Source: Bacteroidota bacterium (lineage in GTDB: Bacteria > Bacteroidota > Bacteroidia > Chitinophagales > Saprospiraceae). Taken from it: 61,683 bases of DNA. The notes beneath the pieces were generated by a model. The model searched no databases and was not told where the DNA came from. It saw only the letters and a list, made by a program, of their open reading frames with translations. The position numbers and the translations under genes are program-made. Below, in pieces: positions 52,123 through 61,683 of the stretch. The DNA lies in NCBI GenBank assembly GCA_006226345.1, contig SBHD01000013.1, positions 1 to 61,683 on the forward strand, in the 5' to 3' direction. Numbering within the stretch: the first letter of the stretch is position 1; every line of letters begins with the position of its first letter.

Positions 52123-54438
52123 ATGAATAGAGCATCTAAATTTTCGAATGATTGGTTCCTGATACCAACAAAACTCTACGGGCTGCACCGTACTTTTCTT
52201 TTGTTTTTTTCATTGATGTTTTTTGTACATGAAATAAGTTTTACACAGCCCTATCTGACCGGCAACGGCGAGATCAATGCAAGTGGGACTTACCAGGACT
52301 TTGTCGTCCCCAATGATCCTACTATCACCCAAATAGAATTCACTGCATATGGTGGTGATGGAGGATATGCAAAAGTGGACGCTGAACTTTGGGTAATAGT
52401 TACCTGGGTACACTATAATTCTTGCAGGGCAAACGGTGGTGAAGGGGCAAGAGCAAATGTTAGGATAAACATTGGCGAAGGAACAAATGAAATCCCGCCC
52501 GGGTCTGTTATTCGTTTTATTGTCGGGCAAAGCGGCAGCTCCATGGAAGACAATGTCAGTGGCTATGTCATTGCTGACTTGTTTGGCTATGCTTATGGCG
52601 GCGGCGGCGGCGGAACCGGCATTCTGTACAAGAGACCGAATGAAACGGACTGGAATATCATCACTATTGCCGGCGGCGGCGGCGGCGCTTATCAGGGTAT
52701 GGCGCCCTTGGGAATTTGCGTGGATAATGAGGATGGACAAGGAGGCCGGACCTCAGAATCAGGAGGCAACGGCAACGGCGATATTTTACCGGGCTACGGA
52801 GGGAGCTATGGATATGGCGGGGAAGGAGGCGGACTGCTCTCTGGCGGCGGCGGTGGCGCTTTTTATGATGGCACCGGATTTACGGAAGGCGGAAGGCATG
52901 GATTCCCGACTGGCGGGAATGGAGGTAGCGGTACCAAACCCGGAGGCTGGGGTATTGGTGGTGGTGGAGCCGCATGGGGCGCTGGCGGCGGCGGCGGCGG
53001 CTATTCCGGCGGCGGTGGCGGCGGCACTACGGGCCGTGGCGGCGGTGGTGGCAGTTATGCAGGCCCCACATGCGCCTACACGGATATTCAGGCCGGTGGA
53101 AATGTCGTTTGGCCAAATCATGGCAAAGTCCAATACAGAACTTACCGCAGGCCTGTGGCACAGTGTATTGACTTTTTAGAGGTGCCCCTGGATCATCTGG
53201 GGCTGGCTGCTATTACAGCAGCTCAGGTAGATGACGGCTCTTATGATCCTGATGGAGACCCCATATCCTATCAACTAAGTGCAAATGCATTTGATTGTTC
53301 AGTACTGGGAGATCAAATAGTCACACTTACGGTAACGGATCAGCCTTATGGCTTTTCTGATCAATGTGTGGTCACAGTCCGGGTCATTGACAACCTGCCT
53401 CCGGAACTCATCGTTCCTGCAGACGCTGTAGTAGACTGTGATGCCGACACCTTCGACTCTGGCATGGCTACCGCTACCGATAATTGTGATGTTGATCTTA
53501 CTTTCGAGGATGTTGTGCTCTCCGGCGACTGTCAGTGGGAATGTACGATCGAACGTACCTGGACTGCAGAAGATCAATCTGGCAATATGGTCCAAAAGCC
53601 GCAGATGATCACCAAAACAGCTATTAACAAGATCAAAGCAGCACTCGCTCAGGATGTGGATGGAGATGGCGTTAATGATCCGATAATACTGGGATACCGC
53701 ACGCATACCCTGACTATTGGAACAGAGGCTGCGCCGTGTATCATACAATGGATGCCAGGACAAGGTGGCGATCCCTGGGAACTGCCGTTTGGTAACTATA
53801 TGGTTGATGGTATTAACTGCAACCCGGGGCCCAATTTATTGGATGCCACAACCGGCAAACTGGATAATGCCTTCCTGACTGAAGCGGTGATACTGGCCAT
53901 TAACCTTCGCCTCGAACCCGGCTTGGGTGATTTGATGCTCCGAGACTGCGGCTGCGATATTCCTCCAATTATCCTGCAGGCACTGCCACCGAAAGCGACT
54001 GTTCGTGATTTGTTTAGACTTAGCAACTTTGCGTTAGGAGGTGTTATTTCGCCGTTCTTTATGGAACACACCAAGGCACTTCGCGAAGTGAACAAACTTT
54101 ATGATATGTGCGCCCCTGATATTGTCGCGCCAATTGCTGCAAACAGGGCCGATACAGACCAGCCCTTAAAGGCCGGAGTTGAAGAACAGAGTTTCACTTT
54201 CTTCCCCAATCCGACCAGCAATTCGCTTTATGTCAATCTGGGAGATTTTATTGGAGAAAAAGTTCAACTGACGATTTATGACCGTACAGGCAGGACAATT
54301 ATGCAAAGGCCATGGGCAGAAGTCAATAGCCCGGTACTCGAAATCAACCTGAACGGAACGCCGAATGGAATGTATACTGTAGAACTCCGTACCAGTGAGA
54401 AGCAATGGATAAGGAAATTGATAGTTGTAAAAAACTGA
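52123..54438 (+). CDS. Secreted glycine-rich/HYR-like protein with T9SS sorting domain
   Basis: Poly-Gly modules (YGGGGGGTGILY..., AAWGAGGGGGGYSGGGGGGTTGRGGGGGSYAG), HYR-like DNLPPELIVPADAVVDCD...ATDNCD, C-terminus FTFFPNPTSNSLYVNL...GMYTVELRTSEKQWIRKLIVVKN. Confidence 0.9.
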   Translation: MNRASKFSNDWFLIPTKLYGLHRTFLLFFSLMFFVHEISFTQPYLTGNGEINASGTYQDFVVPNDPTITQIEFTAYGGDGGYAKVDAELWVIVTWVHYNSCRANGGEGARANVRINIGEGTNEIPPGSVIRFIVGQSGSSMEDNVSGYVIADLFGYAYGGGGGGTGILYKRPNETDWNIITIAGGGGGAYQGMAPLGICVDNEDGQGGRTSESGGNGNGDILPGYGGSYGYGGEGGGLLSGGGGGAFYDGTGFTEGGRHGFPTGGNGGSGTKPGGWGIGGGGAAWGAGGGGGGYSGGGGGGTTGRGGGGGSYAGPTCAYTDIQAGGNVVWPNHGKVQYRTYRRPVAQCIDFLEVPLDHLGLAAITAAQVDDGSYDPDGDPISYQLSANAFDCSVLGDQIVTLTVTDQPYGFSDQCVVTVRVIDNLPPELIVPADAVVDCDADTFDSGMATATDNCDVDLTFEDVVLSGDCQWECTIERTWTAEDQSGNMVQKPQMITKTAINKIKAALAQDVDGDGVNDPIILGYRTHTLTIGTEAAPCIIQWMPGQGGDPWELPFGNYMVDGINCNPGPNLLDATTGKLDNAFLTEAVILAINLRLEPGLGDLMLRDCGCDIPPIILQALPPKATVRDLFRLSNFALGGVISPFFMEHTKALREVNKLYDMCAPDIVAPIAANRADTDQPLKAGVEEQSFTFFPNPTSNSLYVNLGDFIGEKVQLTIYDRTGRTIMQRPWAEVNSPVLEINLNGTPNGMYTVELRTSEKQWIRKLIVVKN

Positions 54439-55976: not shown

Positions 55977-56020
55977 CTGTTATGCTTAAAAAATAAAAAA
56001 CTGAATCTGTTTCTCTTAAA

Positions 56021-56039
56021 GCAAAGATAGGATCTTTGC
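56021..56039. promoter_or_regulatory. Palindrome with -7-like element(s) in the divergent intergenic region
   Basis: GCAAAGAT-AGG-ATCTTTGC; the minus strand reads TATCTTTGC (-7 consensus) toward the MocR gene. Confidence 0.5.
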
Positions 56040-56070: not shown

Positions 56071-56121
56071 GTGCTCGCTGCTCGTCCTGCGACTTTGAGT
56101 CGTAGGACGAGCAGCGAGCAC
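56071..56121. repeat. 51-nt hairpin, 24-bp stem with one mismatch
   Basis: GTGCTCGCTGCTCGTCCTGCGACT-TTG-AGTCGTAGGACGAGCAGCGAGCAC. Confidence 0.92.
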
Positions 56122-56151: not shown

Positions 56152-57669
56152 ATGCACCTGGACATTACCATTGACCGTTGGAAGCCCCAATACCGGGAAG
56201 CCTTTTGGCAACTCAACCGCGAATGGATCGAAGCGGATTATCCACTGGAAGAAGTCGATATAAATGTGTTACAGAATCCGGAAATCCATATCTTGTCGGA
56301 TGGTGGGAGCATTCTCTCCGCTGTGTCCAACGGGCAGGTTGCAGGCGTTGTGGCATTACGGCCGGCCGGCAATAACGTGCTGGAATTGACCAAGATGGCC
56401 GTAGCAGTGCCCTGGCGGGGCCGGGGCATCGGCAAACAACTACTGCAAGCTGCGTTGGAGGAAGCCCGTCAATTGGGCGCCGGAAGGGTGATTTTATACT
56501 CCAATACCCGCACCTCCGCCAGGGCCGTAAGGCTTTACCGGAAAATGGGATTTCGGGAGATCCCGCTTGAAACAGGAATCTACCAACGCGCTGACATTAA
56601 AATGGAACTAACCTTTGACACTATCCCTGTACGGAAGACGGCCAAAAGCCGCCTGCCGGAAACCGATCTCGAAAAACTTACTTTCGGCACCATCGTATCC
56701 GACCACATGCTGGTAGCCGATTACAAGAACGGGGCCTGGCAACGACCAGAGATCGTTCCGTATGAAAACCTCTCGCTGCCGCCCGCCACCATGGCCCTGC
56801 ACTACGGACAGATCGTCTGGGAGGGCATGAAAGCCTTCCGGCTTGCCGACAGTGGCGTCTCTGTCTTCCGCATCGACCGGCATGCCCGGCGGATCAACCG
56901 TTCACTCCAACGTATGGCCATGCCAGCCATGCCCGAAGCATACTTCCGGGAGTGTATCCGTAGCCTGGTTTCCCTGGATGCCGGCTGGGTACCCGGCGCT
57001 TCCGGAGCAGCGCTGTACATCCGCCCGCTGATTTTTGCTTCTGACGCAATGTATGGCGTTAAAATATCGGATACGTACCGGTTTATCGTTTTTACAGGCC
57101 CCGTACCGCCCTTTTACCCCAACCCGCTCAAGGTCAAGGTGGAAGAAAAGTTTATCCGGGCAGCCCCCGGTGGCACCGGAGCGGCCAAATGTGCCGGCAA
57201 CTACGGCGGCTCGCTCTATCCGGCAAGTCTGGCCAAGGCGGCGGGTTTCGATCAGATCCTGTGGACGGACGGGTCACCAGAACTCAACATTGAAGAGTCC
57301 GGCACCATGAATGTGATGTTCGTTTTAGATGGCAAGCTGGTCACACCTCCACTTTCGGATACGATCCTGGACGGTATTACCCGTGACAGCATCCTGGCGC
57401 TGGCCCCCGAACTGGGCATGCCTGCCGAGGAAAGAACGATCAGTGCCTTTGAACTGGTGGAAGCACACCGGAAAGGGCTGTTGCAGGAAGCGTTCGGAGT
57501 GGGTACCGCCGCAGTAACAGCGCCATTCGAACTGATCCAGGTACAGGAACATACATTGCCATTACCTCCTGTCGGACCGGATACATTTGCGGTTCGGGTC
57601 CGTGAACTGCTTCAGGAGATCCGCACCGGGCTGCGACCCGACCCGTTCCAATGGAACACGATTGTGTAG
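56152..57669 (+). CDS. GNAT acetyltransferase - branched-chain-type aminotransferase (class IV) fusion protein
   Basis: N-terminal GNAT (LELTKMAVAVPWRGRGIGKQLLQAALEEARQLGAGRVILYSNTRTSARAVRLYRKMGF) then BCAT-like VRKTAKSRLPETDLEKLTFGTIVSDHML...LHYGQIVWEGMKAFR...AAKCAGNYGGSLY...NIEESGTMNVMFV, one uninterrupted frame. Confidence 0.92.
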   Translation: MHLDITIDRWKPQYREAFWQLNREWIEADYPLEEVDINVLQNPEIHILSDGGSILSAVSNGQVAGVVALRPAGNNVLELTKMAVAVPWRGRGIGKQLLQAALEEARQLGAGRVILYSNTRTSARAVRLYRKMGFREIPLETGIYQRADIKMELTFDTIPVRKTAKSRLPETDLEKLTFGTIVSDHMLVADYKNGAWQRPEIVPYENLSLPPATMALHYGQIVWEGMKAFRLADSGVSVFRIDRHARRINRSLQRMAMPAMPEAYFRECIRSLVSLDAGWVPGASGAALYIRPLIFASDAMYGVKISDTYRFIVFTGPVPPFYPNPLKVKVEEKFIRAAPGGTGAAKCAGNYGGSLYPASLAKAAGFDQILWTDGSPELNIEESGTMNVMFVLDGKLVTPPLSDTILDGITRDSILALAPELGMPAEERTISAFELVEAHRKGLLQEAFGVGTAAVTAPFELIQVQEHTLPLPPVGPDTFAVRVRELLQEIRTGLRPDPFQWNTIV

Positions 57670-57698: not shown

Positions 57699-57724
57699 AA
57701 CGTCCCCGCTATCGCGGGGACGTT
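57699..57724 (+). terminator. Intrinsic terminator of the GNAT-BCAT gene
   Basis: AACGTCCCCGC / GCGGGGACGTT stem, 4-nt loop, TTTTT. Confidence 0.9.
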
Positions 57725-57794
57725 TTTCTCCGCTGTTTGCTGGCGATGCACCTGAAAAGCTGCATCGCCTTTTTACGGAGGCTGGACTGTTCAC

Positions 57795-58576: not shown

Positions 58577-60862
58577 ATGCTTGTACGAAGTTTATTTCCC
58601 CTTTTCAGCCTTTTTCTAGCGACATCCCTTTTCGCGCAGGACCAGATGTTTCAACAACTGACCTATCCGGTTAACCAGAATGGCAAAACACTGCAGTACC
58701 CATTTGCCGGCGGCCTTAATGCCCCGCAGTTTTCGGAAGCCGACCTGAATAACGACCAGATACCCGACTTGGTCGTCTTCGACCGCGCCGGAGATGTATT
58801 TCTGACCTTTTTGAACGAGGGCACCCCCAACACATCCAGCTACCGGTACGCACCTGAATTTGCCTGTAACTTCCCGCCATTACAGGACTATGTACTGCTG
58901 CGCGACTACAATCAGGACGGCGCCGCAGATATTTTCTGTGCCTCCCTGGGCCTGGGCACACAGGAAATGCAGGTTTTTAAGGGGTATTATGAAAATAATA
59001 TGCTAAAGTTCTCGCCGTTCCTGTTCACCTACCCGGGCTGTGCCAGTTGCGTGCCGGAATATATCTACTACCCTTCTGTGCTTCCCGGATTTTGGAATAA
59101 CCTGTTTATCGCCGATACCGACATACCTGCGGTGGACGACGTAGATGGCGACGGTGACCTGGATATAATAACGTTTGACGGCGCTGCCGGCGGTCATGTC
59201 TGGCTGGTCCAGAATATGTCGGTGGAAAAAGGCTTCGGACTGGACAGCCTGCATTTTGAAGTAACCGACCGCTGCTGGGGCCTTTTTTATGAAAGCGGGT
59301 TGCTGGCCTGCGAATGTGACCTGAGCCCGGGACAGGACTCCTGTGTAAACGGGTTTTCCGGCCCGCCGGTAGTGGACGACCGCGACGACACCCGACACCC
59401 TGGCTCCACCGTTATGACATACGACCAGGAGGGCGATGGCGATATGGAATTAGTACTCGGCGATATTTCCTTCAGCTGCCTGAACCAGCTGGTCAATGGC
59501 GGCACCAAGGACTTTGCCTGGATGACCGAGCAGGACAATCAGTTTCCCCGGTATGACACGCCGGTGGACATTGTCATTTTCCCGGCGGCCTTTTATCTCG
59601 ACCTGAATAACGACGGTAAAAAAGACATGGTGGCTGCTCCGAACAACAAATTTGTCAATGAAGACCGCAACGGTGTCTGGTATTATCCCAATACTGCCAC
59701 CACGGCACAGGACCATGTATTTGAATTGGAGACCAAGCGCTTCCTGGTCGGGGACATGGTTGATGCCGGCACCGCCACCCATCCGGTATTGGTGGATGTG
59801 AATGCCGACGGGCTGCTGGATATCGTAATTGGCAACTATGGTTATTTTACTCCGGGCATAGCCCAAAATGCGAGTTTGTACCTGTATCGAAACACCGGGA
59901 CTGCGATGGCTCCGGAGTTCACCCTGATCGACTCGGACTGGCAGGGTCTATCTGAATTTGCGCCCAACGACTACGACTTCTGCCCCACCTTTGGCGATCT
60001 GGACAACGACCAAGACCTGGATATGCTGGTGGGAAGTAATGGCGGAGCACTCTACTATTACCGCAACACTGCCGGCGCAGGCAACCCCATGCAATTTGAG
60101 CGGGACTTCAATATTATGTGGGTCACTATGGATATCGGCTCGTATTCCACCCCGGCTATCGTCGACCTGGACAGTGACGGGCTTAAGGATATCGTTGTTG
60201 GGGAGCGCACCGGCGAACTGAATTTCTTTAAAAACATCGGAGCGCCCGACAACCCCATTTTCAACTCTTCCCCTACCCTCACCAAACTGGGCGCCGTCGA
60301 TACACGGGTACAGTTTTCGGATATCGGATTCAGTACACCCGTATTCCTGGAGGAACAGAATGGTGCAATTTTCCTGGTCACCGGCACGCAGGAAGGACAC
60401 CTGGAGGCCTATACGAATATTGTTGCCTCCCAGGACCCCTATGCCGTGGTATCGGAAAAATGGGGGAATGTGGATGTCGGCAATCGCAGCGCACCGACGT
60501 TTGGCGACTTGGATAAGGATGGTAAACTGGAAATGGTGGTGGGCAACCTTCGGGGTGGTCTGATGGTTTTCCGCACTGAAATGGCCGACTGTACGACATC
60601 TACCAGTACTGCAGTCAAACCAACCGCACCGGAGCCACGCCTGTATCCGAATCCGGCTTCCAGTTGGGTACGGGTGGAGTGGCCGGCCCGGTATTCCGTT
60701 AATTGGCGGATCAGCAATGCCCTGGGGCAACTGGTCACCGCGGGAACTGCTCCGAACGGAAGTTTTACCATTCCGGTTAACGGCTGGCAGAGTGGTCTGT
60801 ACTTTTTGGAGTTGCGTAGTGCGGATCAGGTGGCTGGCAAGACGATCATCATTGCCGATTAA
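58577..60862 (+). CDS. FG-GAP/VCBS-repeat secreted protein with T9SS sorting domain
   Basis: Repeats DLNNDQIPDLVVFDRAGD, DVDGDGDLDIITFDG, DLDNDQDLDMLVGSNGG, DLDSDGLKDIVVGERTG, DLDKDGKLEMVVGNLRGG; C-terminus LYPNPASSWVRVEW...GLYFLELRSADQVAGKTIIIAD. Confidence 0.93.
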   Translation: MLVRSLFPLFSLFLATSLFAQDQMFQQLTYPVNQNGKTLQYPFAGGLNAPQFSEADLNNDQIPDLVVFDRAGDVFLTFLNEGTPNTSSYRYAPEFACNFPPLQDYVLLRDYNQDGAADIFCASLGLGTQEMQVFKGYYENNMLKFSPFLFTYPGCASCVPEYIYYPSVLPGFWNNLFIADTDIPAVDDVDGDGDLDIITFDGAAGGHVWLVQNMSVEKGFGLDSLHFEVTDRCWGLFYESGLLACECDLSPGQDSCVNGFSGPPVVDDRDDTRHPGSTVMTYDQEGDGDMELVLGDISFSCLNQLVNGGTKDFAWMTEQDNQFPRYDTPVDIVIFPAAFYLDLNNDGKKDMVAAPNNKFVNEDRNGVWYYPNTATTAQDHVFELETKRFLVGDMVDAGTATHPVLVDVNADGLLDIVIGNYGYFTPGIAQNASLYLYRNTGTAMAPEFTLIDSDWQGLSEFAPNDYDFCPTFGDLDNDQDLDMLVGSNGGALYYYRNTAGAGNPMQFERDFNIMWVTMDIGSYSTPAIVDLDSDGLKDIVVGERTGELNFFKNIGAPDNPIFNSSPTLTKLGAVDTRVQFSDIGFSTPVFLEEQNGAIFLVTGTQEGHLEAYTNIVASQDPYAVVSEKWGNVDVGNRSAPTFGDLDKDGKLEMVVGNLRGGLMVFRTEMADCTTSTSTAVKPTAPEPRLYPNPASSWVRVEWPARYSVNWRISNALGQLVTAGTAPNGSFTIPVNGWQSGLYFLELRSADQVAGKTIIIAD

Positions 60863-60871
60863 CTGTATTAA

Positions 60872-61561
60872 TTACAGGTCAAAGCTGAAGCCTTTGGCCA
60901 CGAAAGCTTCATACGTATCCCGGTCAAACTGATACAGTTTGGCCGGCCGGTGCGCCACACCCTCCTGGAGTTCATTGAGGTCCAGGAGCAGGTTCATTGA
61001 CAGGATCTTTTTCCGGAAATTCCGCTTGTCCAACTTATCATCCAGAATGGCTTCGTAGAGCTGCTGAAGTTCGGTGAGGGTAAACTTGGGAGGCAGGAGT
61101 TCAAAACCGACAGGTGCTCTGCGCACCTTACGCTTGAGACTTTTAAGGCAGGTATCCAGGATCTCATTGTGGTCAAATGCCAGTTCACCGACTTCCGACA
61201 CCGCATGCCAGCTCGCCGATTGTGCAAATGATGCGGGCGTCACCAAAAAATCACTGATCTTGATCAGCGAATAGTACGCGATCGTGATCACCCTTCCGAG
61301 CGGATGGCGGTTGACCGCACCAAATGCTTTGACCTGTTCCAGGTAAACATCGCGCAGGCCGGTCAGCTGTTCCAGGACGCGTTCGGCGGCAGTGTCCAGG
61401 TTTTCATTCGGGTATACCAGGTCGCCGGGCAATGCCCATTTACCCTTGAATGGCGCAGCGCCACGCTGGATAAGCAAAACCTTCAGGTCGCTCCCGTCAA
61501 AACCGAAGATAACATTGTCTACCGAAAACGCAGACTTGAAGAAGCTCTCGATCTCGCTCAT
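60872..61561 (-). CDS. NUDIX-domain transcriptional regulator (NrtR-like)
   Basis: NUDIX-like N-terminus (VDNVIFGFDGSDLKVLLIQRGAAPFKGKWALPGDLVYPNENLDTAAERVLEQLTGL) plus C-terminal winged-helix-like FTLTELQQLYEAILDDKLDKRNFRKKILSMNLL. Confidence 0.85.
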   Translation of the reverse strand: MSEIESFFKSAFSVDNVIFGFDGSDLKVLLIQRGAAPFKGKWALPGDLVYPNENLDTAAERVLEQLTGLRDVYLEQVKAFGAVNRHPLGRVITIAYYSLIKISDFLVTPASFAQSASWHAVSEVGELAFDHNEILDTCLKSLKRKVRRAPVGFELLPPKFTLTELQQLYEAILDDKLDKRNFRKKILSMNLLLDLNELQEGVAHRPAKLYQFDRDTYEAFVAKGFSFDL

Positions 61562-61683
61562 ACGTATGTATCCGTTGATCCCGGTCAAAATTACGGACTT
61601 ATTGTTAAAACAACACCAATTTATCCGGGTAATCCCCGAGGGCTACTTTACATATTGGCCTTTTTTTTGCACTATTGTTTTTC

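Follow-up and report, generated by a model that had tools for sequence, protein, structure and literature searches.

A GNAT-BCAT gene fusion opposite a MocR-type regulator in a genus of Saprospiraceae

Why would a bacterium encode an acetyltransferase and a branched-chain-type aminotransferase (BCAT) in one reading frame, opposite a MocR-type regulator? We addressed this question in a 61,683-nucleotide stretch of a Saprospiraceae genome (G000; contig SBHD01000013.1), hereafter the window. The open reading frame at 56152-57669 of the forward strand ran uninterrupted from ATG 56152 to TAG 57667-57669. Its 505-aa product had a GNAT domain (PF00583), followed without a long linker by a complete BCAT. 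An earlier note, made from the sequence alone, had read this frame as a GNAT ending in KMELTF plus a BCAT with the motif AAKCAGNY, and had proposed a domain search. The frame and the profile scores confirmed that reading, the search returning a GNAT and then an ilvE_II-type BCAT.

The Pfam profile Acetyltransf_1 matched residues 23-134 (2.7e-18, 66.8 bits, cut-off 20.7), placing this part among the GNATs, and Aminotran_4 (PF01063, class IV aminotransferase) matched residues 235-439 (2.1e-31). Against NCBIfam, the BCAT half scored 281.5 bits for ilvE_II (TIGR01123, cut-off 250.05) and 355 bits for NF009897 (cut-off 307). The orthologue in G023 reached 283.3 bits for TIGR01123. The acetyl-CoA pyrophosphate loop, R/Q-x-x-G-x-G/A, was present as R89-G-R-G-I-G94; the form RGRGIG occurred in five of the six fusions known to us, and RSRGIG in the remaining one. 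The GNAT ended in ...ADIKMELTF, and in alignments IKME led to the BCAT N-terminus within about ten residues. An AlphaFold2 run with a six-sequence alignment was poor (pLDDT 46), and the run with an 80-sequence alignment was used (mean pLDDT 93). Foldseek matched the BCAT part of this model to human BCATm and Mycobacterium tuberculosis IlvE, with TM-scores of 0.90-0.92 by target. There is an alternative GTG start upstream, at 56071, in frame with the 505-aa ORF. ATG 56152 was preferred: the first residue of each of the five orthologues aligns with it. The features of the locus are collected in Table 1.

Table 1 Features of the fusion locus, in window coordinates.
Feature	Position	Strand	Evidence
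MocR-type regulator, 478 aa	54540..55976	-	GntR 4.3e-16 and Aminotran_1_2 6.9e-28 (Pfam)
Predicted MocR operator, CTGTTATGC-N10-AAAANCTGNATCTGT, tandem CTG/ATCTGT boxes	55977..56010	+	Directly upstream of the MocR ATG
Probable mocR promoter -7 element, TATCTTTG, fits TAnnTTTG	56022..56029	-	Aligned intergenic sequences
Probable imperfect -7 element of the fusion promoter, GATCTTTG, nAnnTTTG	56031..56038	+	Aligned loci
5'-leader hairpin of the fusion gene, 25-bp arms, 3-nt loop	56071..56121	.	RNA fold -58.5 kcal/mol, z -10.2
GNAT domain, residues 1-150	56152..56601	+	Pfam, invariant columns, purifying selection
Junction, residues 151-165, IKME straight into the BCAT N-terminus	56602..56646	+	Alignments
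BCAT (class IV aminotransferase), residues 166-505	56647..57666	+	NCBIfam ilvE_II, Foldseek
Trp223 codon, WEGMKA for FEGMKA	56818..56820	+	W in all six fusions
Lys346 codon, PLP-binding, in AAKCAGNY	57187..57189	+	Invariant; same alignment column as the Lys of solved BCATs
Probable intrinsic terminator, ACGTCCCCGC-TATC-GCGGGGACGT then TTTT	57700..57728	+	Direct sequence reading

With 410 contigs the genome is a draft, and the earlier note had named absence from close relatives, as expected of a sequencing or assembly artefact, as a refutation. Five congeners carried it at full length (G020, G023, G025, G353 and G354; 69-72% identity), so that six of the 42 genomes of the genus had the fusion, each from a different species. 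For the closest pair, G025 and G354, dN/dS was 0.126 in the GNAT part and 0.078 in the BCAT part, indicating purifying selection on both domains. The presence of the same fusion in independent genomes, with low dN/dS, refutes an artefact, to which we attach a negligible probability. The profile scores above cut-off, the retained loop and Lys346, and the purifying selection bear out the earlier impression that both domains are intact.

Outside the genus, no fusion was found in samples of 297 genomes from the family, 389 from the order, 362 from the class and 398 from the phylum, which overlap and in which scoring covered the few top candidates of each genome. None of the 147 matching plasmid records covered 80% of the fusion query. 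As far as these samples reach, the GNAT-BCAT fusion is lineage-restricted. Two sets of candidates were rejected. The match in G355, at the edge of a contig, covered the query from residue 128 onwards; the frame upstream of the BCAT was not GNAT-like, and the MocR of this genome lay on another contig. The long open frames of f22 (G756 and G796) consisted of separate GNAT and BCAT genes sharing a frame, with a single stop in between; no MocR was seen beside these pairs.

The in-frame ATG at 56602 (M151) had been suggested as a start for the BCAT alone. This Met is conserved, which would suit internal initiation yielding a BCAT beside the full fusion; however, it is part of IKME, the C-terminal motif of the GNAT itself. 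The C-terminus of this GNAT family normally carries R-A-[ND]-I-K-M-E, which is kept in stand-alone GNATs and in cupin-GNAT proteins, and the unfused GNATs stop 3-21 residues past it. Since the motif is kept in GNATs without a BCAT, the conservation of M151 is uninformative about a start codon. No other observation favoured a second start. We therefore dropped the suggestion, and consider a separate BCAT product from this codon very unlikely.

The divergent gene encoded a protein with the architecture of the MocR subfamily, a GntR wHTH domain (residues 9-72) and an Aminotran_1_2 domain (residues 140-446). It carried an SSMSK motif, which is expected to bind PLP. Against the PdxR equivalog NF052282 it scored 252.8 bits, below the NCBIfam cut-off of 320. 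The earlier note had called for a survey of how often fusion and MocR occur together: a divergent MocR orthologue was found beside every fusion, with 76-78% identity where measured.

By aligning the intergenic regions we found a conserved block adjoining the MocR start, the predicted operator. Allowing up to two mismatches, it was present in 12 of the 42 genus genomes, in one copy each, except for two copies in G022; a reversed operator, used as control, had no matches in the same 42 genomes. MocR adjoined the operator in 12 of 12 genomes, nine of them by protein search and three (G353, G354 and G355) by direct reading. The operator was not found in G352 and G356, which were outside the MocR search. 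A related block (CTGATATGGTCAAAAATACAAAAACTGAATCTGT-like) preceded most MocR orthologues across the order, whatever the target. A divergent target and a repeat-type operator, both typical of MocR regulators, were thus found at the sequence level. The conserved linkage and the conserved operator together strongly support control of the fusion gene by the divergent MocR, as had been proposed.

The -7 consensus of Bacteroidota is TAnnTTTG. The operator sat between the mocR -7-like element and the mocR start, a position that would fit autorepression. The fusion-facing -7 element was at the same register in most aligned loci, and its imperfect form would fit an activator-dependent promoter. The leader hairpin was a single copy in the genome, and the intergenic regions of the five fusion loci in the congeners lacked it. 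Three readings are conceivable: a structure with a regulatory role, a palindrome inserted recently, or an error of the local assembly. Downstream, the terminator probably closes a one-gene unit. The locus was flanked by proteins with T9SS C-terminal sorting domains, at 52123-54438 and at 58577-60862, the second with FG-GAP repeats; such sorting domains point to Bacteroidota. A NUDIX protein with an NrtR-type winged-helix regulator domain was encoded on the minus strand at 60872-61588.

Further operator copies were located away from the fusion. In G022 the second copy preceded a DinB-family gene by 50 nt and lay far from mocR (L179:4837-5441, G022 C5), which suggests that DinB proteins belong to the MocR regulon. 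In G744 another copy directly preceded a class V aminotransferase gene (L213:2817-4102, C18), and in G908 another lay upstream of ketopantoate-reductase-like and SDR genes (L211:2534-4272, C1).

Relatives showed several gene layouts opposite MocR: (i) a cupin-GNAT fusion in four congeners, with a second GNAT and PhzF behind it in G028 and G034, and cut by contig ends in G016 and G030; (ii) a stand-alone BCAT in G022; (iii) separate GNAT and BCAT genes, the unfused ancestral layout, in G080, G259, G186, G906, G899 and G868, with the same unfused order in genus g44 (L084, L086, L087) and in f21 (L134, L136, L140); (iv) EamA-GNAT-BCAT in G388, G969 and G937; (v) EamA-BCAT in G784, G907, G898, G874, G895 and G167; (vi) EamA with GNAT-DinB in G856, G908 and G916; and (vii) a pyridoxal-dependent decarboxylase followed by GNAT and BCAT in G744. 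Six same-strand pairs were measured, and 11-81 nt separated GNAT from BCAT in them.

The same GNAT subfamily was also fused to an N-terminal cupin_2 domain, to a C-terminal DinB_2 domain and to a MarR-like domain. Loci with these alternative fusions were L043, L044, L045 and L046; L129, L135, L137, L142, L127 and L081; and L056. Judging from these sequences, the subfamily is an unusually promiscuous fusion partner. The MarR-GNAT, cupin-GNAT and GNAT-DinB proteins share the GNAT of the GNAT-BCAT fusion but differ in the partner domain, BCAT being the only PLP enzyme among the partners.

In the BCAT tree, the six fusions formed one clade (SH-aLRT 100), with a stand-alone BCAT from G160 as sister (97), and were placed outside a 39-member group holding the housekeeping ilvE enzymes (99). 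G000 kept a separate housekeeping-type ilvE elsewhere (45% identical), and so did other fusion carriers. In the GNAT tree, the fused GNATs and the cupin-GNATs of this genus formed a group (100/95). The G160 enzyme was the nearest unfused BCAT (61%). As it does not adjoin the MocR of that genome, the exact fusion event is not traced to a single MocR/GNAT-BCAT operon. In other genera GNAT and BCAT are separate genes opposite MocR, hence the fusion unites neighbours of the same module. It would have arisen as a recent, lineage-specific joining of two neighbour genes within an older MocR-controlled module.

The fused BCAT shares with IlvE-II/BCAT enzymes (human BCATm, M. tuberculosis IlvE) the fold, the catalytic Lys and the surrounding motifs. 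It differs from them in having a GNAT in front, in being a paralogue outside the housekeeping ilvE group, and in the FEGMKA motif. The Phe of FEGMKA lies in the BCAT substrate pocket. It was replaced by Trp in all six fusions; the M. tuberculosis and human enzymes and every other distinct BCAT examined, MocR-linked or housekeeping, had Phe. The Phe of FEG(M/L)KA is a usual but not a required feature of IlvE-II, and the fusion still passes the profile cut-off. A change from Phe to Trp at this site likely alters the substrate range of the fused BCAT. The GNAT part had no NCBIfam equivalog above cut-off.

Among the closest known systems are the PdxQ MocR regulons, predicted mostly in Proteobacteria (Suvorova and Rodionov 2016, PMC5320631). 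These comprise DMT transporters, aminotransferases, RimI acetyltransferases, and CsdA-like and PhzF-like enzymes (PMC5320631). The loci studied here have similar content, found in relatives either within the cluster or downstream of the operator, together with a MocR and a repeat-type operator; the class V aminotransferase of G744, for example, resembles the CsdA-type member. In contrast to PdxQ, a BCAT-type enzyme joined to the acetyltransferase serves as the aminotransferase, and pdxH/pdxO were not recognised beside the loci. With respect to the B6 genes and DMT/LysE transporter expected of PdxQ, relatives had an EamA/DMT transporter, and no B6 gene was recognised beside any MocR locus among the neighbours identified, more distant targets being sought by operator pattern only.

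The best reading of these data is a bifunctional enzyme that modifies amino acids and belongs to a PdxQ-like MocR regulon. MocR, bound to the tandem intergenic operator, would repress its own gene and, with PLP and an amino ligand, would switch on the divergent fusion gene. The BCAT part would exchange the amino group between 2-oxoglutarate/glutamate and an amino acid with a hydrophobic or branched side chain, in a pocket altered by the Phe-to-Trp change, and the GNAT part would cap a primary amine using acetyl-CoA. Most likely, the two activities together would remove or convert an amino compound that is unusual or present in excess; in relatives, this task would fall to a GNAT and a BCAT encoded by separate genes, along with an EamA-type transporter. 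At the fusion loci, neither a transporter nor a B6 gene adjoined the MocR/fusion pair, so the common pathway is inferred from the relatives; the ligand, the direction of regulation and the substrates are likewise proposals. The explanation as a whole, a recent fusion switched by MocR for the disposal or conversion of amino compounds, seems to us about evenly balanced between right and wrong. The earlier note had gone further and placed both domains on one amino acid or keto acid, which they may share. In the most specific version, the fusion would be a MocR-controlled valve, in which the single chain forms an amino acid by transamination and N-acetylates this product, or works in the opposite order, so that it can be disposed of or exported; the BCAT pocket would be re-shaped. 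GNAT-BCAT, cupin-GNAT and GNAT-DinB would then be several solutions to the same metabolic problem under one conserved operator. We put this forward tentatively and think it rather unlikely to hold in full.

The domains could instead act on unrelated substrates, the fusion just fixing the ratio and expression of two genes that already responded to MocR. The variety of GNAT partners (cupin, DinB, MarR, BCAT) suggests shared regulation over fixed chemistry, and in G022 MocR is linked with a BCAT without a GNAT of the same subfamily. However, GNAT-BCAT adjacency recurs across several families, and the retention of both domains together under purifying selection points to a shared role. We regard unrelated substrates as a real possibility, although probably not the correct one.

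Two further explanations concern the compound itself. The module might serve PLP homeostasis or damage control, with MocR sensing PLP and the enzymes scavenging reactive amines derived from B6 or from PLP enzymes. The resemblance to PdxQ content (DMT transporter, aminotransferase, RimI-type acetyltransferase, PhzF-like and CsdA-like proteins; PMC5320631) speaks for such a role, but the lack of recognised B6 genes among the identified neighbours and the MocR score below the PdxR cut-off make it improbable. Resistance to a toxic compound resembling an amino acid, which N-acetylation and transamination would inactivate and which EamA would remove in relatives, would agree with the EamA and DinB partners, DinB being weakly similar to the YfiT bacillithiol transferase. 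The best GNAT matches in NCBIfam, which were sub-threshold, included streptothricin and arsinothricin acetyltransferases, but these were far below cut-offs and are common for any GNAT, and no co-localised antibiotic genes were noticed; resistance is an improbable role. The bifunctional enzyme for an excess or unusual amino compound remains our preferred reading.

Each domain and the regulator come from known families, and the join itself looks new. The earlier note had asked whether this might be a common architecture with a described function, and no description of GNAT-BCAT was found in the open-access literature searched. The locus is a gene fusion whose neighbour-gene precursors are still visible in relatives. 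Since one operator is common to the fusion, to the unfused operons and to the alternative GNAT fusions, they offer a testable handle on a large and poorly understood group of MocR regulons, and the function of a whole module in this bacterial order could be assigned by one screen of ligands and substrates.
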